64,000 bases of DNA from Cyanobacteria bacterium SZAS LIN-3 (GTDB lineage Bacteria > Cyanobacteriota > Vampirovibrionia > Obscuribacterales > Obscuribacteraceae). Both the position numbers and the translations under genes were made by a program. Location: NCBI GenBank assembly GCA_018266215.1, contig JAFEAV010000006.1, forward strand, positions 62,001-126,000, read 5' to 3'. This document shows positions 56,154 through 63,891 of this stretch, piece after piece. The notes under the pieces were generated by a model that was given only the letters and a program-made list of their open reading frames with translations, made no database searches and was not told where the DNA came from. Numbering within the stretch: position 1 is the first letter of the stretch; each line of letters opens with the position of its first letter.

Positions 56154-57704
56154 TTAATGGTCGGCGACAGAACAGAGTAGCGACAGTCGCACCGACTCCA
56201 TCGTCTGGGGACGCAGATCAGGGTCCCGCTCAAGCATTTTAGCCACCAGTTGTTCCATCGCCGGGGAAAAGCTTCCCTGGGGACAGACCTCCGACATCGG
56301 CGGAGCCGTCCAGTAGCAATGCTTTTCAAATGTCGCCGCCGGCGTCGCCGCCTTGAATACTTTTTCGCCGGTCAGGGCCTCGTAGAAGACGCAGCCCAGA
56401 GAATAAATGTCCGAGCGTGCGTCCAGTAAGCCACCAAAGCACTGCTCCGGAGACATATAACAGGGAGTGCCGCTGACATAAAATCTATCGGTGGATTGTG
56501 ACTGTGACTGTAACTCCGCCGGGGTCTCCTGCGATACCATCTGTGCCAGACCAAAATCAACAACCTTGACGCTTTCTTTGGGCTGCGTGCCGATGACAAG
56601 GATATTGGTGGGCTTGATGTCACAATGGACTATCCCCTTATCGTGGGCTTCCTCCAGGCCCATGCACAGTTCGGAGCCGAGGTCGACAAGACGCTCTTCG
56701 GACAGATTACGCTCAGCTTCCAACAGGTCTCCCAGACTGCGACCATTGACAAACTCCATCACCATAAAAGGCTCGTTATTGGAGCTGATGCCAAAGTCAT
56801 AGACTTCAACAATATTTTTGTGATGCAAATTAGCGACGGCCATAGCCTCACGCTGAAAGTTCCGCACTGCCAATCGGCTCTCGGACAATTCAGGTCGAAT
56901 TAGCTTAACAGCCACATCCCGGTCCATGTAAATGTGCCTGGCCTTGAAGACCGCACCGATTCCCCCCGAGCCGAGCATTTCTCCCAGCTCATACTTATCG
57001 GCGAAAATGGTCTGTTTGTCTCTTTCGCGAATGAAATTTCTCAGCCAGTCACCGGAATCGGAAGCTACGGCGCCGCCTTGCGTTTGCACGACCGTGGCAT
57101 TATCAGGGCCAGCTGCGTCGGCGATAAACTTATTGATGATACTGCCCATAATGCGTGCCAGCTTTTCTGTGTTGGCATCAAGTCCGAGGGCAATTTTCTC
57201 GTTGGCCACACCGGCTCTGATCATCTCCAGAATTTTGCGTTCAGAGTCCGTGAGATCTACTGCGCCTTCTTCGCCGACATTACGACTGTTGCGCAGAACG
57301 ATCTCAGCAATTGAAGGATCCAGCCAGATCTCCCCCCTGGTCACGGCGGCAATCGCCGCGGCAACTTGCTCTATCGCCGTATCTTTGACGCAATAGCCCT
57401 CAGCACCGGCCCCGAGAGCAGCCATGACATCAGCGGGCTCGGTGTGAGCGGTAAACATCACCACCCGGGTATGGGGCAACTCTCGCTTGACGCGCCAGGT
57501 AGCCTCTATGCCGTCAATCCCAGGCAGGCCCACATCCATGAGTATGACCGCCGGTTGCAAGCGCAGCGCTTCCCGGACCGCCATATCACCGTCCTCCGCC
57601 TCACCCACGATCCGGCAGCAGTTCAGCCGCTCGAGCGCCACCCTGAGACCAAATCTCAGAAGTTTATGGTCCTCAACAATCAGTACCGAAGGGGAATCAG
57701 CCAT
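56154..57704 (-). CDS. NarL-type response regulator fused to a eukaryote-like Ser/Thr kinase
   Basis: 516 residues; AGG precedes ATG 57704. Domain order: receiver (1-125) with phospho-acceptor D57 (LMDVGLPGIDG) and switch Lys107; LuxR-like HTH (about 151-195; LTDSERKILEMIRAGVANEKIALGLDANTEKL), partly degenerate in the recognition helix; Ser/Thr kinase (about 238-510) with glycine loop GSGGIG, K267, catalytic HCD at 360-362 (HCDIKPTN, Cys in place of Arg) and DFG at 383-385. No transmembrane helix, so it is soluble. Phosphorylation of D57 probably controls the kinase. It is last in the left phosphorelay arm, 8 bp after 57713. Confidence 0.92.
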   Translation of the reverse strand: MADSPSVLIVEDHKLLRFGLRVALERLNCCRIVGEAEDGDMAVREALRLQPAVILMDVGLPGIDGIEATWRVKRELPHTRVVMFTAHTEPADVMAALGAGAEGYCVKDTAIEQVAAAIAAVTRGEIWLDPSIAEIVLRNSRNVGEEGAVDLTDSERKILEMIRAGVANEKIALGLDANTEKLARIMGSIINKFIADAAGPDNATVVQTQGGAVASDSGDWLRNFIRERDKQTIFADKYELGEMLGSGGIGAVFKARHIYMDRDVAVKLIRPELSESRLAVRNFQREAMAVANLHHKNIVEVYDFGISSNNEPFMVMEFVNGRSLGDLLEAERNLSEERLVDLGSELCMGLEEAHDKGIVHCDIKPTNILVIGTQPKESVKVVDFGLAQMVSQETPAELQSQSQSTDRFYVSGTPCYMSPEQCFGGLLDARSDIYSLGCVFYEALTGEKVFKAATPAATFEKHCYWTAPPMSEVCPQGSFSPAMEQLVAKMLERDPDLRPQTMESVRLSLLCSVADH

Positions 57705-57712
57705 CCAAATGC

Positions 57713-58804
57713 CTACGCAGCAGGAATGGTCACGGTGAATCGTGTCCCATTCCCTTCTTCACTAAAGCACATAATTTTACCGCGGTGGGCATCAATCAAT
57801 TTCTTGCACAGATATAAACCCAGGCCTGTGCCGGGCGTGTATTTCTTGCCGATTCGCCCCTGTGAAAATCGCTCAAACAAACGCTGTTGCTCGTCCAGGG
57901 GAATCCCAGGACCGGTATCCTCGATTGCCATCGCGACACAGCCGTTGGTGCCCTGCACCGAAAGGCTTATCTGCCCGCCGTTGGGAGTAAATTTGAGGGC
58001 ATTGTCCAGCAAATTTTGCACCACCCTGCGCATAGCGCTGTGGTCAGCCAATACATCACGCACCACCGGAGCAAAATCGGTGCGCACAAGTATGTCGCGA
58101 TTGGCGGCGATGGGGGCTATTTCTTTTATGCAGCTTTCGATGATTTTAAGGATATTCGTGTGCTCGAGTCTTACGGCATACACATCTTTTTCAAACTTGT
58201 ATACTTCGATCAGATTCTGAATCATCGAGAGCAAGAGCTTATTGTTATCGCGCAGCTGCAACAATAAATTGACATGGTCCTCCGGAATCTTACCGAGCGC
58301 ACTAGCTGCCATAAGCTCCAGTATGCGGTTGGCTCCAATCAAAGGATTTTTCAAATCATGGGTGAGGGTGGCCATAAATTCTTCGTGCTGCTCGAGGAGC
58401 AATAGACGGCGGGAATTCTCTTCAAAACCTTTGCGATCACAGGCATAGCGAATGGCCCGCGGCAGCATGTACTCGGTCAATTCCTGCTTGAGAATATAAT
58501 CCTGAGCTCCGGCCTGAACCGCCTGCACCGATACGCCCTCGTCCGAGAGCCCGGTCAAAACTACAATCGGCACCTGCGGCAGTTTTTCGTAAATGCAGTT
58601 AAAACTCTCAAGCCCGTTGCCGTCCGGCAGGGACAAGTCCAGAAGCACTAGATCAAATTTACGCCGGTCGATTATTTCAATAGCTTCCTCAAGGCTGGCC
58701 GCATGAGTAAGAATGTAGCGGTCTTTGGTGAGCAGCTCTCGAACATAACGAGCGTCGGCCGGACTGTCCTCGATCAACAATATTTCAACTGTCTTAGCAG
58801 TCAT
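57713..58804 (-). CDS. Receiver-histidine kinase hybrid (left arm)
   Basis: 363 residues. N-terminal receiver with D-containing box VLLDLSLPDGNG, then HisKA with phospho-acceptor His in FMATLTHDLKNPLIGANRILELM, then HATPase (NLLDNALKFTPNGG, DTGPGIP, GTGLGLYLCKKLI). No membrane segment; the protein is cytoplasmic. Start overlaps the stop of the Rcp1-like gene at 58801 by 4 bp. It pairs in structure with 62401 of the right arm, which has an added PAS domain. Confidence 0.93.
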   Translation of the reverse strand: MTAKTVEILLIEDSPADARYVRELLTKDRYILTHAASLEEAIEIIDRRKFDLVLLDLSLPDGNGLESFNCIYEKLPQVPIVVLTGLSDEGVSVQAVQAGAQDYILKQELTEYMLPRAIRYACDRKGFEENSRRLLLLEQHEEFMATLTHDLKNPLIGANRILELMAASALGKIPEDHVNLLLQLRDNNKLLLSMIQNLIEVYKFEKDVYAVRLEHTNILKIIESCIKEIAPIAANRDILVRTDFAPVVRDVLADHSAMRRVVQNLLDNALKFTPNGGQISLSVQGTNGCVAMAIEDTGPGIPLDEQQRLFERFSQGRIGKKYTPGTGLGLYLCKKLIDAHRGKIMCFSEEGNGTRFTVTIPAA

Positions 58805-59235
58805 TTTTTCGATGGGTACCTCACGTTATGAAACCAGAATTGATCGAGCGACTTGATGATTGATGAGAATTGCTCCAGGTCCATTGGTTTTGGGATATAG
58901 CAACTGGCCTGCAGTTTGTAGCTTTTAACGATGTCCTCCTCCGATTGAGAGGTTGTTAAAATCAAAACCGGTATCGAATTGAGATCAGCACTGGCCTTCA
59001 TCTCAGCCAGAACTTCGCGACCGTCTTTCTTGGGCAGATTCAGATCGAGCAAAACCACATCCGGGCGCCTGGCGTGACGATAGGTGCCACTGCGACACAG
59101 ATAATGCATAGCTTCTTCGCCATCGCGCACCACATGCACATCGACCGCCACTCTTTCGTCTTTGAAGACCTCAAGAATCAACCTGGCATCGGCCTGGCTG
59201 TCTTCAACCAGTAATAGCTGGATCCTACCTGTCAT
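58801..59235 (-). CDS. Rcp1-like single-domain response regulator (left arm)
   Basis: 144 residues from ATG 59235, preceded by AGG at 8 nt; the frame is open to 59412. Receiver only: LLLVEDSQADARLI, D in [31 protein letters not shown] and CYIPKPMD. This is the Rcp1 subfamily, partners of cyanobacterial phytochromes. It overlaps the sensor kinase stop (59225) and the next gene start, so the arm is one tight operon. Paralogue of 61927. Confidence 0.94.
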   Translation of the reverse strand: MTGRIQLLLVEDSQADARLILEVFKDERVAVDVHVVRDGEEAMHYLCRSGTYRHARRPDVVLLDLNLPKKDGREVLAEMKASADLNSIPVLILTTSQSEEDIVKSYKLQASCYIPKPMDLEQFSSIIKSLDQFWFHNVRYPSKK

Positions 59236-60259
59236 CGCCACTACCTGCAGTATCATGCTTGGGCAAGGTAAAGAGAAATGAGGCGCCCTGCCCGGGGGTC
59301 GATTCCACCCAGATGCGGCCGCCATGGCGCTCGATAATTTTCTTGCAGACGGCAAGACCAATGCCGCTTCCGGTATAGAGGTCTCTGGTATGCAGCCTCT
59401 GGAAAATGACAAAAATCCGCTCAGCGTATTTCAAGTCCAGGCCGATACCGTTGTCACGCACTTCAAACAGCCAGAACTTGCCGTCATCCCGGGAAGAGAT
59501 GTCTATCTGCGGCGTGGCCTCCGATTTAAACTTGACGGCATTGGCGATTAAGTTTTGAAAGACTTGCACCAGTTGACGCGCGTCACCTTTTACTGTGGGC
59601 ATCGGCCCACAATTGATGAAAGCTTTGCTCTCAGCCAAGGCTACTTTTAAATTAGCCAGGGCGTCTTCGACCACCTGCTTACAGTCAGTGGCGGCAAATT
59701 CCTGCCCCTTGGTCTGCACGCGACTGTACATAAGCAAGTCGTCGATCAATCCCTGCATGCGCTTGGAAGCGTCGACCGTAAACTCCAGAAATTCATCGGC
59801 GCTTTCGTCCAGCACTTTACCGGAATAGCGTTTGGCAATCAGTTGCGTATAGTTTGAAATGACACGCAGCGGCTCCTGCAAGTCATGGGAACAGACATAG
59901 GCAAATTGCTGCAGGTCCTCGTTAGATCGTTGCAGCTCTAGCAGTTTCTCCTGCAACAGAGCCTCGCCCAGTCGCCGCGCGGAGATATCGACAATGGAAG
60001 CGAGCACGAAGCGCTCACCGCCGGTAATGAGCGGATTGAGACCAATTTCCACAGGCAGCTTTGTGCCGTCCTTGCGCTGGCCATAGAGATCTCGGCCACT
60101 ACCCATCGCTCTTGTTTTAGGATTGGCGAAAAAACCGGCGCGATGCTCCACATGTTTGGCGCGGGTTGCCGCCGGCACCAGAATGTCGATCGATTGACCG
60201 AGCAATTCTTCCCGGGTATAACCGAAGAGATGTTCCAAGGGCAATCTTGCCGGCCTCAT
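59225..60259 (-). CDS. PAS-histidine kinase (left arm), 5' part frameshifted
   Basis: 344 residues from ATG 60259 in this frame. The segment EHLFGYTREELLGQSIDILVPAATRAKHV is the second half of a PAS domain and RDLYGQRKDGTKLPVEIGLNPL its end. Then comes HisKA (LQQFAYVCSHDLQEPLRVISNYTQLI, with phospho-His) and HATPase (NLIANAVKF, DNGIGL, GIGLAVCKKII). The first half of the PAS domain is in another frame (60235-60353). No ribosome site is seen at 60259, so this gene may be damaged or expressed by reinitiation. It pairs with the Rcp1-like gene at 58801 and mirrors 60826. Confidence 0.85.
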   Translation of the reverse strand: MRPARLPLEHLFGYTREELLGQSIDILVPAATRAKHVEHRAGFFANPKTRAMGSGRDLYGQRKDGTKLPVEIGLNPLITGGERFVLASIVDISARRLGEALLQEKLLELQRSNEDLQQFAYVCSHDLQEPLRVISNYTQLIAKRYSGKVLDESADEFLEFTVDASKRMQGLIDDLLMYSRVQTKGQEFAATDCKQVVEDALANLKVALAESKAFINCGPMPTVKGDARQLVQVFQNLIANAVKFKSEATPQIDISSRDDGKFWLFEVRDNGIGLDLKYAERIFVIFQRLHTRDLYTGSGIGLAVCKKIIERHGGRIWVESTPGQGASFLFTLPKHDTAGSGDDR

Positions 60260-60353
60260 CGACCATAATCATGCCGCTGGGAGCGGCCTCAATGACAAGG
60301 CGCAGTCCTTCTTCGGTAAGTTGATGAATGCCCGTGGGGCCTTTATCGGTCAT
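60235..60353 (-). pseudogene. N-terminal PAS fragment separated by a frameshift from 59225
   Basis: From ATG 60353 the frame reads MTDKGPTGIHQLTEEGLRLVIEAAPSGMIMVDEAGKIAL, clearly the start of a PAS domain whose continuation (LFGYTREELLG) is in the frame of 59225-60259. In PAS proteins of this type about 14 more nucleotides are expected between the Lys-Ile and Glu-His parts (around 60234-60246). A small deletion, or an assembly error, would explain it. Confidence 0.7.
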
Positions 60354-60825
60354 GTAGCACCGTGACACTTAAAACAACGTAGCCGCTTAAGCTTTTACTT
60401 TTTGAAGTTCCCGGGGCTACCTGAAGCAAGCTGCCTTTTGCAGTACATTGAGCAGCTGCAACTTACTACCCGACCGACTGTAAGACAGATTCGGAATTTC
60501 CACAATTCTGTGTATATCACAGTGAGATTGCACACGTCTATAGGTCCGTGATCACATTGATCTGGCCATTATCTATCACATCCCTATTTACTAGAAACCG
60601 GGAAAGACAATGGCAGTCAATATTTTCGGCTCTACCAATAAATGACCAAACCAAGGCAAGAAAATATTATTTTTCACCCCAAGAAAAGGTAATAGTGAAC
60701 AACAAACTCAAGTTCCCCCATTTAGGGGATAGACCAGCCAAAAGAATACTGTAAGGATTGGAAGAATACCCGCGGTTGACCGTGTTTAAAGACCGATCAC
60801 CTGACCGGCTGTCGGCAGAGGCGCA
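60354..60825. other. Divergent control region between the two phosphorelay arms
   Basis: About 470 bp without a convincing gene; a 68-codon frame at 60548-60754 has no homology signal. The region should hold the promoters of both arms. A 15-bp inverted repeat CTGTG-TATAT-CACAG lies at 60508-60522, and CCCC/GGGG halves occur near 60715-60729. Confidence 0.6.
60508..60522. promoter_or_regulatory. Inverted repeat in the divergent phosphorelay promoter region
   Basis: CTGTG (60508-60512) and CACAG (60518-60522) flank TATAT. The TGTG-N5-CACA core is reminiscent of, but one base shorter than, a CRP-type site. It is about 155 bp from the left-arm start at 60353 and about 305 bp from ATG 60826. Confidence 0.35.
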
Positions 60826-61917
60826 ATGCAGACCCTAATTGAATTGGAAAAAGCCGAACAGGAGTCCATTTTTCTTTCGATATTCGACAGCATATCCGAT
60901 GGTGTGATTGTTTGCATTGAAGGACGCGAGCGTCTTTTGATGAACTCAGCGGCACAGAGAATCATCGGGCTGAAAGAAATAAATAAGCCGATGAGCGAAT
61001 GGTCTACCGTGACCGGCTGTTACTACGAACCGGATGGCGCGCTGATTCCCTGGGAAGATCTACCCCTTCCACGGGCACTGCGCGGCGAAAGCATCGATGA
61101 TTACGAAATCCTATTGAACAACAAAAATCTCGACCAGCCGGTATGGGTAAGCATCAGCGGCAGGCCGCTCACAGGTGGCGCAAAGGGCGGCGTGATCATC
61201 ATCCGAGACATAACGGCAAAGAAGAAAATTGACCAGGAAACGCTGCGCTCCAACCTGGAATTGCAGCAATTTGCCTATGTGGCAGCCCACGACCTGCAGG
61301 AGCCCTTGCGCACAGTTGTAAGCTATCTAGATCTGATTGAGCAGCGCTGTCCGGACCAACTGGACGACAAGGGCACCAAGTATTTGACCAGCGCCGTTAA
61401 GGGCGCCAGGCGAATGCAATTACTAATAAGTGATCTTCTCAGATATTCGCGGGTCAGCGCCCGCAAGGGCGAAATGGAAGAGGTCGACATGGAGCGCCAG
61501 GTCAGGGGCGTTATGAAAGACTTTCACCAGCTCATGCAAGATACGGAAGCGACAATCGAATTCAGCGCTCTGCCTACGATAAAAGCCGACCGCTCCCTTC
61601 TCACCCATCTATTTCAAAACCTGATCGGCAATGCCCTGAAATACCACGGCCCCGCTCCGCTCAAAATCACAATCTCGGCAACTAAAGAAGGTTCCGGCTA
61701 TAAATTTATGGTGGCGGATAACGGCATCGGATTTGAGATGGAGTACGCCGAACGCATATTCCTGATGTTTCAGCGTCTACACGGTCGCGATGAATATCCA
61801 GGGACAGGCATTGGATTAGCCCTCTGCAAAAGAATAGTCGATCATCACAACGGCCGAATCTGGGCCGTCTCGGCACCGGGTAAAGGCTCAACTTTCTACT
61901 TCACTATCAACACTTAG
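60826..61917 (+). CDS. PAS-histidine kinase (right arm)
   Basis: 363 residues, soluble. PAS domain at about 15-130 (FLSIFDSISDGVIVCIEGRERLLMNSAAQRIIG), HisKA (LQQFAYVAAHDLQEPLRTVVSYLDLI, phospho-His) and HATPase (NLIGNALKYHG, DNGIGFEMEYAERIF, GIGLALCKRIV). The LQQFAYVxxHDLQEPLR block equals that of the left-arm kinase 59225. Next is the Rcp1-like gene 10 bp later, with TTG start. Paired function with it is expected. Confidence 0.95.
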   Translation: MQTLIELEKAEQESIFLSIFDSISDGVIVCIEGRERLLMNSAAQRIIGLKEINKPMSEWSTVTGCYYEPDGALIPWEDLPLPRALRGESIDDYEILLNNKNLDQPVWVSISGRPLTGGAKGGVIIIRDITAKKKIDQETLRSNLELQQFAYVAAHDLQEPLRTVVSYLDLIEQRCPDQLDDKGTKYLTSAVKGARRMQLLISDLLRYSRVSARKGEMEEVDMERQVRGVMKDFHQLMQDTEATIEFSALPTIKADRSLLTHLFQNLIGNALKYHGPAPLKITISATKEGSGYKFMVADNGIGFEMEYAERIFLMFQRLHGRDEYPGTGIGLALCKRIVDHHNGRIWAVSAPGKGSTFYFTINT

Positions 61918-61926
61918 GAGATTATC

Positions 61927-62379
61927 TTGGCCAGACTGATTCAGCTACTGCTCGTAGACGATAGCCCGGAGGACATAGATCTGACCATGGAAGCTCTGGC
62001 CTCAATGAAGCTGGCCAATAACATTTCAGTCGTCCACGACGGAGTCGAAGCCATGCGCTTTTTGCGCAGAGAAGGGCAATACAGTGAAGCCCCCAGACCA
62101 TCGGTGATCTTGCTGGACTTAAACATGCCCAAAAAGGACGGACGGGAAGTACTGGAGGAAATAAAAGCCGACCACGAACTGAAGGATATACCGGTTGTAA
62201 TTTTGACGACATCGAAAGACGAGGAGGATATTGTCCGCTCTTATAAAGCTCATGCAAACTGCTATGTCAGTAAACCTGTCGACATGAGACAGTTTGAAAA
62301 AGTGGTACGCTCAATAGAAGACTTCTGGTTTGCAGTGGTGGAATTGCCGCCAGGAAGCCGGCCCAACCATATCGAATAG
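61927..62379 (+). CDS. Rcp1-like single-domain response regulator (right arm)
   Basis: 150 residues starting at TTG 61927, with AGGAG at 61916-61920. Receiver only: [13 protein letters not shown], phospho-Asp in [33 protein letters not shown] and CYVSKPVD, ending [13 protein letters not shown]. Strong similarity to the left-arm receiver 58801, including the EEDIV-SYK and CY--KP-D-RQF elements. Rcp1 family. Confidence 0.95.
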
Positions 62380-62400
62380 GTATCTCTGTGCAGGTTACAA

Positions 62401-63891
62401 ATGAAAATACTCCTGGTCGAGGACAGCCCGGCGGATGCTGACATTTTTTGTGAGCAACTGCAGTATGGCGGTGGTGATGAATTTGAGGTGCTGTGGGCAG
62501 ATAAGCTGGCCGACGCATTGCGTCGCCTCGATCAGGAATCATTTGATGTAGTCCTCCTGGATCTTAATCTACCGGACAGCAACGGCATCAAAACTCTGGA
62601 AAAACTGCGCAGTCTTTATCCGGCTATGCCAGTACTGATTCTGACAGGCCTCGACGACGCACATATCGGTATTGAATCGGTGAAAAACGGGGCCCAGGAC
62701 TATCTGGTCAAAGGGCAACCAAGCCGCGATTCAATCATTCGCTCTCTCCACTACGCCGTCGAGCGTAAACGCCTGGAGATGCTCAACTCCGAATCCGCAA
62801 GGAAGGCGAGCGAATCGGAAGCCGCCTTGAGATTGGCTCTAAAAGCGGCAAATACCGGCTTCTGGTCCTGGGATATAGTCAACAACAAACACGAAACCAA
62901 TACCGAAATAGGACGTATTTTTGACGAACCGGAGTGCCACTCATTCGATACTTTTATGCAGCGCATTCACCTGCAGGACGTCGAACTGGTCCGGGGTGTA
63001 ATTAAACAATGCCTCGAGGGTAAGGAAGATTTCGACCTGCAATTCCGGGTGCAATGGCGGGATAAGTCTATTCACTGGGTGCGTGCCATGGGTATGACTG
63101 TCTTTAACCAGACCGGCAAAGCAGAAAAAATGACCGGCATCCTGCACGATGTGACAAAGCAGCTAACACAACAGGCCGAAGACAAAAAGATAGCGATTCT
63201 CCAGCAACAAAGCGAATTCACAGCAGTCCTGGCCCACGATTTAAAAGGGCCGATCCTGGGCTCGCAGCGCCTGCTGCAGTTGATGCGGGAAGGAAAATTT
63301 GGCCCTTATTCTGAGCGCTTCGGCGAGGCGTTTGATCAGCTATTTGGCTGCAACCAGAGCCTGCTGATTTTGATCCACAATGTCCTGGACAGATACAGAC
63401 TCAGTTCTGAAGAAAATTTTCTCTGCGTTCAGAGAGTCGAAATGACGAAAATCCTGGAAGCGGCCGTGAACGAAACAGAGATTCTGGTGCGCAACAGCAA
63501 ACTCAACTTGATTGTCGACGACCGCAGCTCCGGTGCCATATACGGTGACGCACTGGCTATGACCCGAGTGCTTTGCAATCTGATAGGTAATGCCACCCGT
63601 TATACGCCCCCCGGCGGGACAATCGAACTTTGCGCCTATAATGACGGTGAAAAGGTCATCCTGGAGGTGACGGACAGCGGCAGCGGCATCCCTCCCGACC
63701 AGCAGGAGCAAATCTTCGAAAGATTCTATCGCGGCCATAATAATGCACGCGCAGACGGCCTGGGACTGGGGCTTTATCTATGTCGCCAGTTGCTCGAAAG
63801 ACAATCGGGGGCCATTTACTGCCTTAATACGGGTGAACGAGGCGCTGCCTTTCGCATCGAAATGCCCCTGGCCCAGTCTCAGGTAGCCTGA
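62401..63891 (+). CDS. Receiver-PAS-histidine kinase hybrid (right arm)
   Basis: 496 residues, soluble. Receiver (1-120, VVLLDLNLPDSNG); PAS/PAC at about 145-260 (GFWSWDIVNNKHETNTEIGRIF, RWRDKSIHWVRAMG, TGILHDVT); HisKA (FTAVLAHDLKGPILGSQRLLQLM); HATPase (NLIGNATRYTPPGG, DSGSGIP, GLGLGLYLCRQLL). Same plan as 57713 in the left arm, with an extra PAS. The 22-bp gap from 61927 indicates one operon. Confidence 0.94.
   Translation: MKILLVEDSPADADIFCEQLQYGGGDEFEVLWADKLADALRRLDQESFDVVLLDLNLPDSNGIKTLEKLRSLYPAMPVLILTGLDDAHIGIESVKNGAQDYLVKGQPSRDSIIRSLHYAVERKRLEMLNSESARKASESEAALRLALKAANTGFWSWDIVNNKHETNTEIGRIFDEPECHSFDTFMQRIHLQDVELVRGVIKQCLEGKEDFDLQFRVQWRDKSIHWVRAMGMTVFNQTGKAEKMTGILHDVTKQLTQQAEDKKIAILQQQSEFTAVLAHDLKGPILGSQRLLQLMREGKFGPYSERFGEAFDQLFGCNQSLLILIHNVLDRYRLSSEENFLCVQRVEMTKILEAAVNETEILVRNSKLNLIVDDRSSGAIYGDALAMTRVLCNLIGNATRYTPPGGTIELCAYNDGEKVILEVTDSGSGIPPDQQEQIFERFYRGHNNARADGLGLGLYLCRQLLERQSGAIYCLNTGERGAAFRIEMPLAQSQVA

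Follow-up and report, generated by a model that had tools for sequence, protein, structure and literature searches.

A family of NarL-type response regulators fused to Ser/Thr kinases in Obscuribacterales, with a probable role as phosphorelay-gated kinases

In fungi, the protein kinase Rim15 carries a C-terminal receiver domain; the phosphorylatable Asp of this receiver has been replaced by Glu, Ala or Gly in many ascomycete members and is retained in the Basidiomycota and Mucoromycota, and the role of the receiver has apparently not been studied (PMC8510515). In filamentous cyanobacteria, the HstK family, on the account cited in PMC1262709, combines a Ser/Thr kinase with a histidine kinase. 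A search of the open-access literature returned no description of a family joining a receiver, a helix-turn-helix (HTH) and a Ser/Thr kinase (STK), which is weak evidence; unpublished or subscription-only descriptions are possible. Scattered architectures that contain both Response_reg and Pkinase do occur in domain databases, and the inputs to bacterial Ser/Thr kinases are mostly poorly known.

The window analyzed here is a stretch of 64,000 nucleotides from Cyanobacteria bacterium SZAS LIN-3, one of the Obscuribacterales, which are non-photosynthetic relatives of cyanobacteria. The genome (6.8 Mb in 186 contigs) has the very large STK set that is carried by the Obscuribacterales, with about 100 kinase-type matches among those listed. 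The original prediction had placed an open reading frame at exactly 56154-57704; we find an intact single gene there, on the minus strand (the prediction was silent on the strand), with its ATG at 57704, a product of 516 aa and full-length relatives at 32-52% identity. As also predicted, a single protein contains both a receiver with an intact D57 (aa ~6-125, 57330-57689, minus strand; Pfam Response_reg at residues 7-118, E 3e-24) and a Ser/Thr kinase, PknB-like and with an HCD catalytic loop (aa ~235-506, 56187-57002, minus strand; Pfam Pkinase at residues 238-505, E 3e-50). AlphaFold models both of these folds confidently (pLDDT mostly >90). Between them lies the partly degenerate LuxR-like HTH that had been proposed, a NarL-type domain that has lost its recognition helix (aa ~148-205, 57090-57263, minus strand): GerE leaves only a trace in the query (residues 151-175, E 0.049, under the Pfam cut-off) that spans just the first half of the domain, and a profile built from 20 relatives matches full-length NarL (1a04, positions 3-205) and VraR (6-205) as a single stretch over their whole length, so that the region linking receiver and kinase is a descendant of a NarL-type HTH. 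The protein terminates with the kinase domain, has neither a transmembrane helix nor PASTA repeats, and scores 274 against a cut-off of 450 with the NCBIfam PASTA-kinase model.

We collected 55 distinct receiver-kinase fusion ORFs from the fetched loci. A chance or frame artefact is ruled out by this number and by domain-wise dN/dS ratios far below 1 where dS could be estimated, which was in close pairs only, most pairs being saturated. We consider it reasonably probable that the protein is a response regulator with a Ser/Thr kinase output, which would be gated by Asp phosphorylation and would reuse its HTH as a transmitter that does not bind DNA.

The receiver has the residues of a phosphorylatable domain (the acidic pair E11/D12, D57, T85 and K107), and across the fusions D57, K107 and T/S85 are each present in 55/55 and D12 in 53/55. 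The kinase has the full Hanks-type set (VAxK Lys, alpha-C Glu, catalytic Asp, Asn, DFG Asp and an APE-like Glu), with K267, E286, H360, D362, N367 and D383 likewise found in every one of the 55. This joint invariance in proteins down to about 30% identity indicates that both the receiver and the kinase activities are under selection.

The gene stands, as had been proposed, at the end of a His-Asp phosphorelay operon. Directly upstream, after a gap of 8 nt, is a REC-HisKA-HATPase histidine kinase, the likely phosphodonor (57713-58804, minus strand); its start is overlapped by 4 nt by a single-domain receiver (58801-59235, minus strand, with its likely start ATG at 59235), and a PAS-histidine kinase (59225-60259, minus strand) comes before both. 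These three genes and the fusion run in the same direction and overlap or abut, which indicates one operon. In this assembly the PAS domain of the most upstream histidine kinase (HK) appears to contain a frameshift, while the REC-HK adjoining the fusion is intact. The N-terminal part of that PAS domain lies in another frame (60117-60368); this PAS half (MTDKGPTG...EAAPSGMIMVDEAGKI), at about 60100-60370 on the minus strand, is out of frame with 59225-60259 and has the look of having lost a short piece, either because the gene is broken or because the assembly is wrong here. The window also holds a divergent paralogous set (HK, REC and REC-PAS-HK at 60826-63891, plus strand) without a kinase fusion; its REC and that of the minus-strand operon are 55% identical.

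Three genera (that of the source genome and those of genomes G014 and G004) share the order HK, REC, REC-HK, REC-HTH-STK, with gene-by-gene identities of 45-56% to the counterparts in the other two. More broadly, 20/55 fusions have an HK gene no more than 300 bp away, on the same strand in 17 cases, vs. 1/31 unfused STKs (Fisher p 5e-4), a comparison in which related fusions are non-independent and all 31 control STKs come from one genome, the source genome. The proportion was 16/25 in the first 25 fusions, and some of the 35 fusions with no HK within 300 bp are at contig ends. The HK partners vary in build (REC-HK upstream, HK-REC hybrids downstream and plain HKs), suggesting repeated association. 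Invariant receiver chemistry, together with the strong enrichment of HK genes nearby, thus lends sequence support to the coupling of receiver to kinase that the original prediction put forward. The kinase might instead phosphorylate its own receiver or HTH, or partner receivers, and so exert Ser/Thr feedback on the two-component pathway with no gating by the receiver; STK phosphorylation of response regulators is well documented in other bacteria and the operons of several fusions do contain further receivers, but we think this unlikely, since the DNA-reading residues are lost (see below), the kinase is the sole recognizable output, and taking the receiver as the input is more parsimonious.

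The catalytic loop of 18/55 fusions, the query among them, reads HCD, lacking the Arg that marks RD kinases; the remaining 37 have HRD. A sequencing error is ruled out by a clade of 18 members. In a tree of 139 kinases, HCD is confined to one branch (support 92), which also holds one unfused kinase, a PAS-STK from contig C106 of the same genome. This PAS-HCD Ser/Thr kinase (locus L094, 11122-12474) is the only unfused HCD kinase seen. The Thr at G-5 (five residues before the glycine of the GT/GS motif), which we take to be the position of PknB T173, the second activation-loop Thr, occurs in 0/18 HCD members, 9/37 HRD members and 33/86 unfused kinases. The residue directly before the same glycine is small (S/C/A) in 15/18 HCD members and Phe in 23/37 HRD members, and the activation-loop Thr at G-7 is kept in 15/18 of the HCD clade. 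Such coordinated changes in the activation segment, with the G-7 Thr kept, suggest that control by the loop has probably been altered and not wholly discarded, and the idea that HCD marks a real change in activation-loop control thereby gains support as a trait of a single clade. There was no significant link between the HCD clade and HK adjacency (10/18 vs. 10/37, p 0.07).

The plant receptor kinase EFR has a Cys in the HRD position, and a scaffold role has been proposed for it; EFR does not need its catalytic activity, and low activity in vitro is seen in non-RD kinases (PMC8463890). By analogy, the HCD kinases, whose existence as a clade would fit such a role, might be weak or inactive pseudo-outputs that act as phospho-dependent scaffolds. 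We regard this as quite unlikely given that the Lys, Glu, catalytic Asp, Asn and DFG Asp are without exception in all 55 fusions and that most HCD members retain the G-7 Thr.

The HTH itself has lost its means of reading DNA and kept its core. With residues numbered on the reference regulator, L163 and L171 of the hydrophobic core, the turn glycine G177 and the IA pair I183/A184 are kept in 81-90% of 52 fusions. Positions T193, K195, T196, H197 and H200, which face DNA in NarL-type proteins, fall from 78-96% in 23 free-standing NarL-type regulators of the Obscuribacterales to 2-17% in the 52 fusions, R199 falls from 87 to 42%, and the DRTQ motif after the recognition helix is gone. The receiver and C-terminal tetrahelical HTH of the NarL/FixJ group can thus be recognized by profile alignment to NarL and VraR, but in place of the recognition helix TVKxHxxH the query reads TEKLARIMGSI. 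GerE matches at E<=0.1 are found in 11/20 family members (best 7e-9). In close pairs with measurable dS, the HTH has a dN/dS of 0.02-0.12, indicating purifying selection, and the linker behind it is looser (0.04-0.35). A fold that is kept while DNA reading is lost would fit a structural transmitter or a dimerization element, and the predicted role of the HTH as a linker that does not bind DNA agrees with this family-wide pattern. It is very unlikely that the fusion continues to serve as a transcription factor, with an HTH that binds DNA at changed specificity and a kinase that acts at promoters by modifying RNA polymerase, sigma factors or itself: the conserved, selected fold core and the GerE matches speak for it, but the recognition-helix and DRTQ positions have collapsed at most sites, and the query's own GerE match stops halfway through the domain.

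The fusions are common within one lineage. A profile search for full-length fusions (E<=1e-130) found them in 29/53 Obscuribacterales genomes and 13/25 genera, with a maximum of four in one genome; the 29 genomes all belong to one family of the order, and the second family (three genomes) has none. With the single protein as query, 13/60 of the nearest genomes matched at E<=1e-76, and the relatives of the gene come from records titled Candidatus Obscuribacter, Obscuribacterales or Melainabacteria. One further record (L049, JAJPJO010000063.1) is titled “Proteobacteria bacterium,” a title that looks wrong, as its match list is that of the Obscuribacterales genome G007. No fusion was found outside the Obscuribacterales among about 900 sampled genomes, with 3-22 candidates scored per genome, so that divergent fusions could be missed; these comprised the genomes beyond the order in a 386-genome sample of the phylum, four other phyla (149, 146, 68 and 150 genomes) and those outside the order among 15 genomes reached via related loci. 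The plasmid and phage records searched gave no true fusion. The architecture had been predicted to be rare; it was absent from all other genomes sampled but is common in the Obscuribacterales themselves.

That the searches outside the order are able to recognize the collinear pattern is shown by an adjacent receiver-HTH and STK gene pair that they picked up in Nocardia farcinica. At this locus (L234, NZ_LN868939.1, 2300-5494), genes for an HK, a NarL-type regulator with an intact HTH and an STK are consecutive, and the regulator and STK share one reading frame, split by one stop codon; this is a possible picture of how receiver-HTH-STK fusions arise. A match from another actinomycete (L238) has one internal stop and presumably the same arrangement. 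Within the collected set, two loci (L043, 5593-6861; L046, 4173-5609) have the receiver joined straight to the STK with no HTH; the L043 receiver scores far below the other fusions against the family profile and may be a separate fusion type. The other genome of the same genus (L227, 7329-7940) encodes, beside a histidine kinase, a stand-alone regulator that has no kinase and whose HTH is degenerate; in the receiver+HTH tree this regulator clusters with the fusions.

The number of changes needed is 4 in the receiver+HTH tree and 8 in the kinase tree, and the support for deep forks is weak; in the first tree two short single receivers, which form a long branch, were wrongly counted as “standalone.” The trees would accommodate either one origin of the fusion or a few. 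The fusion may have arisen in or near the ancestor of the Obscuribacterales and then expanded by duplication.

Combined, these traits suggest the following mechanism. The histidine kinases of the same operon, given their genomic adjacency, would phosphorylate D57, and this would alter the packing of the receiver on, or dimerization around, the HTH, as in NarL. Because the HTH has no DNA-contact residues and yet is constrained in close pairs, it would relay the conformational or dimerization change to the kinase domain and not to DNA. The output would be a soluble, eukaryote-like kinase that holds the catalytic residues needed for activity. In this way serine/threonine phosphorylation probably comes under the direct control of a classic bacterial sensor. 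We infer control of the kinase by D57, and the route of the signal from HTH to kinase is conjecture, since AlphaFold, with a thin alignment, leaves the HTH and linker at pLDDT <50 (residues 168-216) and neither confirms nor refutes the fold. With HCD for HRD and no second activation-loop Thr, the kinases of this clade would probably rely less on phosphorylation of the loop and more on the receiver. Tentatively, and as something short of an even prospect, the whole order may have turned NarL-type transcription factors into phosphorelay-gated STKs, with the HTH as intramolecular transmitter, and one clade may have dropped the HRD Arg as control shifted from activation loop to receiver.

In cross-talk between STKs and two-component systems, a regulator is usually viewed as the substrate of the STK. 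The opposite, hard-wired direction seems to apply here, in that a His-Asp pathway with a conserved phosphoacceptor would feed an STK within one molecule. The natural variants (HRD or HCD, HTH more or less degraded, HTH-less) make receiver gating of a Hanks kinase directly testable, and kinases under phosphorelay control could be built from the family, which is soluble and modular.

Judged by its residues, the protein resembles a response regulator whose output is an enzyme, of NarL/FixJ descent without the residues that read DNA, and is a Hanks kinase of neither the RD nor the PASTA type. Its nearest known parallel is Rim15, which also holds a receiver and a Ser/Thr kinase in one polypeptide, leading from two-component signalling to Ser/Thr phosphorylation; the domain order is reversed, the receiver here being N-terminal where Rim15-like proteins have the kinase and then a C-terminal receiver, and Rim15 has no NarL-type HTH. 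HstK, as it is cited, belongs to a sister lineage and likewise brings the two kinds of phosphorylation chemistry together in a single bacterial protein, but there the partner of the STK is a histidine kinase transmitter, with no receiver or HTH in that account. NarL/FixJ regulators such as NarL (1a04) and VraR (7ve6) can be aligned with the fusion from receiver through linker to HTH without a break (residues 3-205), whereas the fusion lacks the DNA-contact residues and adds a 280-residue kinase. The Cys of EFR stands at the same place as that of the HCD fusions, a useful analogy only. PknB-type Hanks kinases (PknB, StkP and PknA) are the best solved relatives and share the same catalytic residues, but the fusion is soluble, has no transmembrane or PASTA part, carries an N-terminal receiver, reads HCD for HRD and is missing the second activation-loop Thr of PknB (G-5).
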